Assembly (NCBI GenBank): GCA_030523425.1
Contig: JAUNIP010000010.1
Span: forward strand, 1 to 45,362
DNA: 45,362 nt
Origin: Coriobacteriia bacterium
Lineage (GTDB): Bacteria; Actinomycetota; Coriobacteriia; Coriobacteriales; Eggerthellaceae
Direction of reading: 5' to 3'
In this document: piece after piece, positions 21 to 43,380 of the stretch
How the letters are laid out: the number at the start of each line of letters is the position of its first letter
Position numbering within the stretch: the first letter of the stretch is position 1
Made by a program: the position numbers and the translations under genes
Notes under the pieces: model-generated
Seen by the model: only the letters and a program-made list of their open reading frames with translations
The model's database searches: none
What the model was told of the DNA's origin: nothing

Positions 21-36
21 ATGCCCCGCGCCCGCC

Positions 37-69
37 CGATTCGTTCACGATTAGCTTTTTGCTTTTGCC
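37..69 (-). repeat. Dispersed 33-bp intergenic repeat, copy R0
   Basis: On the minus strand this copy reads as two A-runs separated by GC, then GCTAATC, then the core GTGAACGAAT. It matches over its whole length the copy at 21685-21717 and closely the copy at 21562-21593, more than 21 kb away. The shared core plus the shared double A-run make chance resemblance unlikely. It lies upstream of moaA and outside any gene. Confidence 0.7.
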
Positions 70-107
70 TCCCTGCTCGAACCGTGCACAGCTGCCCTTG
101 CGTTGTG

Positions 108-15653: not shown

Positions 15654-17954
15654 GTGGCCACGCAAACCTTCGATGTAACGGGCATGACCTGCGCTGCGTG
15701 TTCCGCCCGCGTGGAAAAAGCCACCAGCGGGGTGGAAGGCGTGGAGCGGGTGGCCGTGAACCTGCTGAAGAACAGCATGGAAGTCACCTATAGCGGGGAC
15801 GCCGCTGTGCTAGATGCCATCAGCGCGGCCGTGGATGCCGCCGGCTATGGTGCCGTGCCGCGCGTTGCCGGCGGGACTGCCGCGCCTGCGCTTGCGCCCG
15901 CCGCACGCCCGGAAAATGCCGCAGCCCAGGAAGCCAAGCAGGTGAAGCTGCGCCTGATTGTCAGCTTCATCTTCGCTATCCCGCTGTTTTACGTGGACAT
16001 GGGGCATATGTATGGTTGGCCGCTGCCGCAGTTCCTGTTGGGCCATGCCAACGTGATGACGCTGGGACTCACGCAGTTTTTGCTGGTCATCCCCATCATT
16101 TTCGTGAACTTCAAATTCTTCCGCAACGGGTTCAAAAGCTTGGCGCACGGCACGCCAACCATGGACACGCTGGTGGCCTTGGGCGCTGCGGCTTCCACGC
16201 TGTGGAGCATCGCGGCGCTGTACCGCGTAGGTATAGCGTTAGGCGCGGGGGACCTACAAGGCGCGCACGCTGCTGCCATGGACCTGTATTTCGAAAGCGC
16301 CGGCATGATCCTAACGCTGATCACGCTGGGCAAGTACTTCGAAGCGCGCGCGAAAGGTCGCACCACCGACGCCCTGACCGCGCTGGTGAACCTGGCACCG
16401 AAGACCGCCGTGCGCATGGAAGACGACGGCAGCGAAACCGAAATCCCCGCTGAGCAGGTGCAACCTGGCGACATCTTGGTGGTGCGTGCCGGTGCTAGCA
16501 TCCCCGTGGACGGCGTGGTGGTGGAAGGCGCAGGCAGCGTGGACGAATCGGCGCTGACCGGCGAAAGCATCCCGGTGGACAAGGCGGCAGGCAGCGAAGT
16601 GACCGGCGCTACGGTAAGCACCGCCGGCTACCTGAAGATGCGCGCCGTGCGCGTGGGCGAAGACACCGCCTTGGCGCGCATCATCAAGTTGGTCGATGAC
16701 GCCACCAGCTCAAAAGCGCCCATCCAGCGCATAGCCGACCGCATCAGCGGCGTGTTCGTGCCGGCGGTCATTGCCATTGCCGTGGCGGTGTTCGCGGTGT
16801 GGCTGCTGACGGGCGGCGGATGGAGCGCCGCGGTGGTGCATGGCATCAGCGTGCTGGTCATCAGCTGCCCGTGCGCGCTGGGGCTGGCCACGCCTACTGC
16901 CATCATGGTGGGCATGGGGCGCGGCTCCAAGCAGGGCATTCTCATCAAGAGCGCCGAAATTTTGGAAACCGCGCACGATGTGAAAACCGTGGTGTTGGAC
17001 AAAACCGGCACCATCACCAAAGGCGCGCCCGAAGTGACCGACGTGTTGGTGGCCCAAGGCATAGACCGCGAAGATCTGTACATGTTAGCCCGCGGCTTGG
17101 AGCGTAAAAGCGAACACCCCTTGGCGCGCGCCGTGTGCGCGTATTTGGAAGCCCAAGGCGCCGACGTGCTGCCTGCGAAGGACTTCGCGCAAGTGCCCGG
17201 CGGGGGAGTGCGCGCCACCGTGGAAGGCGCCCCGGCCTTCGCGGGCAACGTGCAGCTAATGCAGCAGCAGGGGATTGACGTGGGCGAATACGCCGCCGAA
17301 GCCGACGCCTTCGCCGCGCAAGGCAAGACGGTGCTGTTCTTTGCGTGGGACGGCATGCTGCTGGGCCTGATAGCGCTGGCCGACGCCGTGAAGCCCACCA
17401 GCGCGCAAGCCGTGGCGGAATTGCGGGCCATGGGCATCCGCACGGTCATGCTGACCGGCGACAACCCGCAAACCGCCCAGGCCATCCAAGCCCAGGTGGG
17501 TGTGGACGAAGTGGTGGCTGGCGTGTTGCCCGAAGGCAAGGAAACCCAGGTGCGCGCGCTGCAGGCGAAGGGCAAGGTGGCCATGGTGGGCGACGGCGTG
17601 AACGACGCACCGGCCTTGGCGCGGGCCGACGTGGGCATAGCCATAGGTGCCGGCACCGACGTGGCCATAGAAAGCGCCGACGTGGTGTTGGTGCGATCCG
17701 ATGTGATGGACGTGCCTGCCGGCATCCAGCTTTCCCGTGCCACGCTGCGTAACATCAAACAGAACTTGTTCTGGGCCTTGTTCTACAATGCTATCTGCAT
17801 TCCGGTGGCGGCGGGCGCGTTGGCGCCCTGGGGCATCACGCTCACGCCGGATTTCGCTGCGTTGGCCATGAGCTTAAGCAGCATCTGCGTGGTAAGCAAC
17901 GCGCTGCGCCTGCGCGGCTGGAAGCCGAAGTGGGCCGCAGAGCGCCAAGGATAG
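15654..17954 (+). CDS. copA: Copper-exporting P1B-type ATPase CopA
   Basis: A 766-residue Cu(I) efflux ATPase. One N-terminal heavy-metal-associated domain binds copper through C13 and C16 (GMTCAAC). The membrane copper site is C405-P-C407, the phosphorylated aspartate D449 (DKTGT), the SEHPLA histidine motif and GDGVNDAPALA in the hinge. Eight transmembrane helices are expected. GTG 15654 follows AGGGG at 15643-15647, which overlaps the stop of the CsoR remnant. copZ follows after 8 bp. With the repressor truncated, control of this gene in copper stress is uncertain; it may be read through from the oad operon. Confidence 0.95.
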   Translation: MATQTFDVTGMTCAACSARVEKATSGVEGVERVAVNLLKNSMEVTYSGDAAVLDAISAAVDAAGYGAVPRVAGGTAAPALAPAARPENAAAQEAKQVKLRLIVSFIFAIPLFYVDMGHMYGWPLPQFLLGHANVMTLGLTQFLLVIPIIFVNFKFFRNGFKSLAHGTPTMDTLVALGAAASTLWSIAALYRVGIALGAGDLQGAHAAAMDLYFESAGMILTLITLGKYFEARAKGRTTDALTALVNLAPKTAVRMEDDGSETEIPAEQVQPGDILVVRAGASIPVDGVVVEGAGSVDESALTGESIPVDKAAGSEVTGATVSTAGYLKMRAVRVGEDTALARIIKLVDDATSSKAPIQRIADRISGVFVPAVIAIAVAVFAVWLLTGGGWSAAVVHGISVLVISCPCALGLATPTAIMVGMGRGSKQGILIKSAEILETAHDVKTVVLDKTGTITKGAPEVTDVLVAQGIDREDLYMLARGLERKSEHPLARAVCAYLEAQGADVLPAKDFAQVPGGGVRATVEGAPAFAGNVQLMQQQGIDVGEYAAEADAFAAQGKTVLFFAWDGMLLGLIALADAVKPTSAQAVAELRAMGIRTVMLTGDNPQTAQAIQAQVGVDEVVAGVLPEGKETQVRALQAKGKVAMVGDGVNDAPALARADVGIAIGAGTDVAIESADVVLVRSDVMDVPAGIQLSRATLRNIKQNLFWALFYNAICIPVAAGALAPWGITLTPDFAALAMSLSSICVVSNALRLRGWKPKWAAERQG

Positions 17955-21373: not shown

Positions 21374-21464
21374 GAAGCCTGCCGGCTGTCCGAAAGCTGT
21401 AGCGCGCCCGTTAGGTGAAGTCCTAGCCCGGCTCGTTTGCGCGTTCCTGGAGGGGCCCCGCAGC

Positions 21465-21486
21465 AAAAAGCCAGCTATGAACGAAC
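21465..21486 (+). repeat. Intergenic repeat copy R1
   Basis: Reads AAAAAGCCAGC then TATGAACGAAC. It shares AAAAAGCCAG with the R5 copy and GAACGAAC plus the following AAACGC with the R4 copy. Confidence 0.7.
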
Positions 21487-21526
21487 AAACGCGCGGGCGG
21501 GCCGCCGGGCCCCGCGAGCGTGACGC

Positions 21527-21551
21527 AAAAAGGACGGTCGTGAACGAATGG
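21527..21551 (+). repeat. Intergenic repeat copy R2
   Basis: Reads AAAAAGGACGG then TCGTGAACGAATGG. It is closest to R4 in its AAAAAGGACGG half and to R3 in the GTGAACGAATGG half. Confidence 0.75.
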
Positions 21552-21561
21552 CCGCCTGACG

Positions 21562-21593
21562 AAAAAGCAAAAATGCCGATTGTGAACGAATGG
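21562..21593 (+). repeat. Intergenic repeat copy R3
   Basis: Reads AAAAAGCAAAAATGCC then GATTGTGAACGAATGG. Like R0 and R5 it has the double A-run ahead of the GTGAACGAAT core. Confidence 0.75.
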
Positions 21594-21630
21594 GCCTGGC
21601 GCGCTGCCCCCGCAAGGGCCCCCGCAGGGC

Positions 21631-21657
21631 GTTTGTTCGTGCACAGCCGTCCTTTTT
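21631..21657 (-). repeat. Intergenic repeat copy R4 (inverted)
   Basis: On the minus strand it reads AAAAAGGACGG, then CTGTGCACGAACAAAC. It is the first copy in the reverse orientation and could pair with R1 or R2 to form a long imperfect hairpin. Confidence 0.7.
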
Positions 21658-21684
21658 ACGCCCCGCGCCCCAATCCTCGGGAGG

Positions 21685-21717
21685 CGATTCGTTCACGACT
21701 GGCTTTTTACTTTTTCG
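21685..21717 (-). repeat. Intergenic repeat copy R5 (inverted)
   Basis: On the minus strand it starts CGAAAAAGTAAAAAGCC and ends AGTCGTGAACGAATCG. It is the copy most like R0 at 37-69. Confidence 0.75.
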
Positions 21718-21726
21718 CCCCTGCCC

Positions 21727-21750
21727 CATTCGTTCACAGCCGATATTTTG
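21727..21750 (-). repeat. Intergenic repeat copy R6 (inverted)
   Basis: On the minus strand it reads CAAAATATCGG then CTGTGAACGAATG. The A-run is degenerate, the GTGAACGAAT core intact. Confidence 0.7.
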
Positions 21751-21848
21751 CGGCCAGCGCGCCGGCTGAGAGACCTGGGTGACTCATGTGCCTGCCCTCT
21801 TTTGACTCATCCGCCATCCCCCGCGGGGAGGACTCCCAAAAACCACTC

Positions 21849-43259: not shown

Positions 43260-43280
43260 GGTGCGGCACTGAAATGCGCC

Positions 43281-43348
43281 GCTACTGACGGATAATCGTG
43301 GAGCACCACGGGGAAGCGGCACATCATATAACGCCGACCGTCTGGGCA
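43281..43348 (+). promoter_or_regulatory. ZTP (pfl-type) riboswitch
   Basis: The sequence fits the pfl/ZTP aptamer: P1 GACGG (43287-43291) with CCGTC (43338-43342), P2 CGTGG (43297-43301) with CCACG (43306-43310), the invariant CACGGGGAAGCG-like stretch at 43307-43317, P3 CGGC/GCCG (43317-43320, 43333-43336) and the conserved 3' CCGTCTGGGCA. ZTP and ZMP signal a shortage of 10-formyl-tetrahydrofolate. The downstream genes use exactly that cofactor and pathway (AICAR transformylase and IMP cyclohydrolase). Binding should switch on expression through the terminator that overlaps its 3' edge. Confidence 0.9.
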
Positions 43349-43380
43349 AGCCAATCGCAAGGTTTGGTTTGCCTTTTTTT
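43345..43380 (+). terminator. Riboswitch expression-platform terminator
   Basis: GGCAAGCCAA (43345-43354) pairs with TTGGTTTGCC (43364-43373), ten pairs with one G-U, followed by a seven-T run. Its 5' arm overlaps the GGCA of the aptamer's 3' conserved strand (CTGGGCA), so aptamer folding and terminator formation exclude each other. Confidence 0.92.

Follow-up and report, generated by a model that had tools for sequence, protein, structure and literature searches.

The gap between the genes for an aroF-type DAHP synthase and an O-acetylhomoserine sulfhydrylase in the window (the whole stretch of DNA analysed, 45,362 nt of a Coriobacteriia genome) holds a discrete six-site element that is dispersed through the genome in 23 copies, and in which both the sites and the spacing between them are constrained. 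We read it tentatively, as close to an even call, as a nucleoprotein site with an architectural role, mobile in origin, whose copies are now kept in place; the main alternative is a selfish mobile element. The original prediction had described six repeat copies, three direct and three inverted, in a gene-free stretch. All six are present at the mapped positions (Table 1) and no credible gene lies in the gap; thus, the observation is confirmed and was in fact understated, and the interpretation given to it is partly supported.

Architecture of the element and its genomic copies

The genome contains 69 occurrences of the exact core GTGAACGAAT, compared to a single one of the reversed control, and the consensus search of the genome retrieved 23 full copies of the element (about 295 bp each) plus fragments at contig ends, so that the genome-wide search suggested in the original prediction found copies well beyond the window. 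Within the window, 11 cores with at most one mismatch were counted against 1.7 expected, a number reached in no shuffle. Besides the full element, the window contains a partial further copy, truncated by the contig start; several contigs terminate within elements, which indicates that the assembly breaks at them. A poly-T run at the contig start (positions 1-20 of the window) adjoins the partial copy.

Table 1. Position of the element, its sites and a partial second copy in the window
Feature	Position	Strand	First T of the core	Remarks
Whole element, R1 to R6	21461..21758	+		One of the genome's 23 full copies; homology stops abruptly near both limits
Site R1, A-tract + ATGAACGAACAAACG	21461..21491	+	21478	Outer site, R4-like tail
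Site R2	21524..21554	+	21541	63 bp past R1
Site R3	21566..21596	+	21583	42 bp past R2
Site R4 (GTGCACGAACAAACG), inverted	21630..21660	-	21643	60 bp past R3; at the dyad of R2-R3/R5-R6
Site R5	21682..21712	-	21695	52 bp past R4
Site R6	21723..21753	-	21736	41 bp past R5
Partial further element copy, R5/R6-type half	23..99	-		Truncated by the contig start; 40.5 bits, E 9e-12

The site unit consists of an A-tract of at least four A, followed by 9 nt and then by TGAACGAA. Over the 134 scored sites the consensus is nngnAAAAnGCngGctgTGAACGAAt, with AAAA at positions -13 to -10 in 127 and the exact TGAACGAA in 102 of them. Furthermore, each of the six positions has its own sub-consensus: R1 and R4 continue with CAAACG (...CGAACAAACG), and R3 and R5 carry GCTAGTTA/TCG-type boxes. 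Essentially no sites are found outside the arrays in this genome, and nearly all the cores are grouped in one geometry, namely R1(+) 63 R2(+) 41/42 R3(+) 60 R4(-) 51/52 R5(-) 41/42 R6(-).

The element is found in either orientation on the contigs, and the order and relative orientation of its sites are constant across the 23 copies. With the exception of R1, the inter-site spacing is constant to within 1 bp, and that from R3 to R4 is 60 in all 23 copies, which refutes the irregular spacing originally proposed. R1 is degraded or lost in a few copies (C4, C31_15540 and C87), and the C83 copy runs past its contig. The long imperfect palindrome envisaged at first holds insofar as an imperfect inverted symmetry exists, in the pairs R2/R6 and R3/R5; however, this symmetry is offset, being centred on R4, and leaves R1 as an additional outer site that resembles R4. 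The distinction drawn from CRISPR stands, since half of the copies of the repeat are inverted and the linkers are common to the element copies, in place of regular direct repeats with unique spacers.

Constraint on spacing and helical phase

The linkers have a mean pairwise identity of 47-64%, yet their lengths are kept. In particular, an R3-R4 linker of 39 nt is found in all 23 copies, with a JC distance averaging 0.69 over the pairs, and 18 of 19 copies have an R1-R2 linker of 42 nt, with a corresponding distance of 0.91. If 0.05 indels are assumed per substitution, the linker tree length predicts 14 indels in the R3-R4 linker, where none was observed (P 7e-7); for the shorter linkers, this test of length constancy is less decisive.

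The spacings between sites on the same strand correspond to integral helical turns. Moreover, the A-tracts of the six sites, taken at their mean centres, all fall in a common helical phase (R 0.986 at 10.36 bp/turn; P 6e-4 when the period is free to vary), and this single phase across the inversion is a property of the six-site element in the source genome, not of the related two-site elements found elsewhere.

Spread and divergence of the copies

The sharp stop of homology at both ends and the unrelated flanks indicate that the copies spread as a unit. Two pairs look recent, with 97% identity over 310 bp and 93% over 287 bp, respectively. In the latter pair (C12/C19) the R1-R2 linker is far more diverged than the R2-R6 portion, a pattern which suggests gene conversion among resident copies. 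The tree of the copies is star-like, terminal branches accounting for 79% of the linker tree length, and gene conversion between copies could be an alternative source of this shape. Along the terminal branches, the change per position is 0.027 in the sites and 0.249 in the linkers, that is, the sites evolve about nine times more slowly. Similar rates would be predicted if the copies were dead after insertion, unless unsampled active copies supply most of the branches.

The pairs R2-R3 and R5-R6 form inverted halves, with R1 outside them. The orientation of the element matches the local GC skew in 17 copies against 6 (gene-direction-corrected t about 2.6-2.9), an association that is suggestive only.

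Folding of the element and neighboring genes

A folded RNA was among the earlier suggestions. On either strand, the fold of the window's element is about 3 SD more stable than those of its shuffles (z -3.05 and -3.11), and its inverted sites are trailed by T-runs, as might suit a structured RNA, a tandem bidirectional terminator or an attenuator transcribed from the gap. The proposed folding check gave a positive value, but a stability of this size is expected of any inverted repeat. In the element copies, no pairing-specific covariation above controls was detected in either linkers or sites. The linker arms are not complementary, with no advantage in pairing for arms of one element over arms of different elements (P 0.28), and the excess of pairing between opposite-strand sites is modest (Z about 3-4) and comparable to that of some same-strand controls. 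Furthermore, neither an intrinsic terminator nor a pattern of a sigma-70 promoter was found, Rfam returned no match for the element (its sole match in the window is a ZMP/ZTP riboswitch elsewhere), and the elements occur in convergent and divergent gaps too. These results disfavor the folded RNA, which we consider very unlikely.

Of the three explanations put forward originally, a protein-binding array fits best. The genes adjoining the elements encode, among others, DAHP synthase, O-acetylhomoserine sulfhydrylase, DnaK, a HisZ/HisG fusion, PurF-like and adenylosuccinate lyase-like proteins, GalT, PFK, GH2 and GH3; several neighbors are biosynthetic, as would suit an operator array controlling them. 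However, no functional theme or common pathway was found among the genes flanking the elements, which may be co-directional, convergent (as for several copies) or divergent, and all six sites are retained in each case regardless of gene orientation; control of adjacent genes is thus hardly credible at all.

Comparison with REP elements and RAYT genes

REPINs, or REP doublets with RAYT, are likewise dispersed and extragenic; their conserved ends are inverted and lie at a fixed spacing, their spacers are diverse, and their variants are genome-specific and of old residence (PMC3116915, PMC3733652). They differ in that they comprise two palindromic REPs, carry a tag and occur in hundreds of copies, whereas here we found 23 copies of six asymmetric sites, with no linked RAYT and no pairing-specific covariation above controls. 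The GTAG/CGTC tag is absent from the consensus of the 134 sites, which therefore does not conform to a tagged palindromic REP of 20-40 bp; similarly, the spacing is fixed as in a REPIN, but the units are six, three per orientation, rather than two inverted ones. The REP/REPIN-like character first suggested thus applies loosely, to a dispersed extragenic inverted-repeat element, and does not extend to the defining features of REPs that were tested.

Three Y1/RAYT-type transposase genes are present in the genome, one of them about 3 kb from an element, and together with the orientation bias and with the resemblance to REPINs in conserved ends, constant spacing and varied spacers (PMC3116915), they would favor a REPIN-like element moved by a RAYT tyrosine transposase via a single-stranded hairpin. 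However, none of the three genes is flanked by the element: no copies were found at the flanks of the C6 Y1 gene, the C50 RAYT-type gene is flanked by its own 33-bp perfect inverted repeats (L143:1990-2022, 2873-2905), and the C61 gene has a different repeat nearby. Moreover, the complete genomes G066 and G052, where related elements are present, were without a Y1 match at E 1e-6; the sisters G067, G069, G128 and G129, by contrast, possess Y1 genes and lack the elements entirely or nearly so. It follows that the occurrence of the element does not track that of RAYT, which is unsupported as the cognate factor. Considering also the missing tag and the indifferent pairing of the linker arms, we regard RAYT-mediated movement as improbable.

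Two observations concern the repeats of these genes. At 21780-21808 of the window lies a REP-like hairpin, GACTCATGTGCCTGCCCTCTTTTGACTC, similar to the 33-bp inverted repeats around the RAYT-type gene of G000:C50. In the C87 element (left of R2, L109), the position of R1 is occupied by TTAGAACCGTCCCCATCGTACCAC, matching a hairpin repeat beside the C61 RAYT gene (L144:807-880).

Related elements in other genomes

The exact six-site architecture was not detected in the 137 other genomes of the family (on gene content, probably Eggerthellaceae), where a model of the half-element scored at most 20.5 bits, compared to 64-78 bits in most matches of its own genome. The element was not found in viral contigs or in phage and plasmid collections, and the literature search returned no description of such an element in this bacterial group, nor of its design. 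In 84,980 species genomes, 17 single matches to the exact pattern were scattered over phyla and were judged to be due to chance.

Differently built elements with an A-tract + GTGAACGA unit were nevertheless identified in at least three other genera. In G127 (g45), three loci carry elements of four AAAA...GCCATCGTGAACGATT sites spaced by 22, 41 and 29, and G066 and G068 (g27) and G052 (g22) have inverted pairs of the TGCTAAAAAAT.ACGTTTGTGAACGA type, 102 or 81 bp apart; these two distances differ by exactly 21 bp, that is, two helical turns. A 152-position model recognized about 9 copies in G066 and 15 in G068, several in G052 and G085, and one each in G067 and G089. The 14 aligned g27 copies span 152 columns without any gap. 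At two orthologous loci, G066 and G068 both retain the element, whose arms differ at few positions and whose interior differs at many. The related elements may share either their ancestry or only a putative binding protein with the six-site element.

The same gene, for an NrfD-like membrane protein, has a related-class element downstream of it in two genera (L181 in G068 and L190 in G052). A common insertion at these loci is unsupported: the flanking gene aligns and the gap does not.

Nature of the element

In the reading that we tentatively favor, the element would act as double-stranded DNA, one dedicated sequence-specific protein would bind its sites along a single face of the helix, and the bound protein may loop or wrap the approximately 27 turns to form a nucleoprotein complex. 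The element would formerly have spread as a discrete non-autonomous unit, and the resident copies would have been retained, most likely for an architectural role in the chromosome (folding, domain boundary or topology) and not for single-gene regulation. This proposal draws on the fixed geometry, the conserved linker lengths, the shared phase, the star-like tree, the slow evolution of the sites, the mixed orientations of the flanking genes and their lack of a theme, as well as on the g27 orthologous loci, which keep their arms while the interiors diverge, and on the near confinement of the sites to arrays. Plasmid centromeres and gyrase-binding BIMEs are phased protein-binding arrays. They have a multi-site, helically phased double-stranded DNA design in common with our element, which differs from them in its 23 dispersed copies; a replaced centromere was rejected, since canonical parS sites are present separately in the genome. 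We also consider, albeit as a doubtful extension, a chromosome-organizing system across the family, in which a dedicated protein would recognize the A-tract + GTGAACGA unit and form phased complexes on several sites each, at dispersed intergenic stations numbering from a few to a few dozen; site number and geometry would be specific to each genus.

To an architectural site retained in place we oppose a purely selfish, non-autonomous MITE-like element, whose six sites would be the synaptic sites bound by a transposase, as in multi-site transposon ends, and would have no role after insertion; this is a real possibility, although we lean against it. It would explain why the unit is discrete and its flanks unrelated, why near-identical copies (the pairs at 97% and 93%) sit at unrelated loci, and why the distribution is patchy and lineage-specific and the orientation agrees with the local GC skew; in addition, relatives in other genera, 129 or 152 bp long, bear TIRs and resemble MITEs. 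However, no rve-type DDE transposase, the type searched for, was matched in the genome assembly (92 contigs) and no transposase flanks the elements, 3-9 bp flanking direct repeats at consistent boundaries are not in excess as target-site duplications would require, and no terminal bases are conserved among the aligned copies. Old copies, with 25% terminal linker divergence, retain their sites, and the contrast between the C12/C19 linkers suggests gene conversion between residents. The ends of Tn7-like transposons contain multiple TnsB sites, several of about 22 bp, direct at one side and inverted at the other. Our element shares this arrangement of direct and inverted sites but has no cargo, and a transposase of the Tn7/Mu type was discarded because the genome has no rve gene. 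Bacterial MITEs (reviewed in PMC10969869) are similarly discrete, non-autonomous units whose halves are inverted and which occupy unrelated intergenic loci; different from them, the present element showed neither target-site duplication, conserved termini nor a cognate transposase, and its internal six-site phased design is under constraint.

If the element is a retained docking station, it points to a DNA-binding protein that shapes chromosomes in a family whose nucleoid organization has been little studied; if it is selfish, it represents a family of mobile elements with an unusual, strictly phased six-site architecture and no recognized transposase. Either reading predicts one protein, six sites and sensitivity to half-turn insertions.

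Other features of the window and of the elements' surroundings

A second short dispersed repeat, CATCCGCCATCCCCCGCGGGGAG, occupies 21808-21830 of the window and is also found near elements on C14, C16, C27, C49 and C62. At about 17577-17624 of G000:C12 (L105:1073-1123) there is an intrinsic-terminator-like palindrome, AAAAAAGCCGGCTGTGCGCGAACAAACGCACAGCCGGCTTTTT, whose arms are similar to site R1/R4. The ZMP/ZTP riboswitch aptamer of the window maps to 43271-43354 on the plus strand (61.2 bits).
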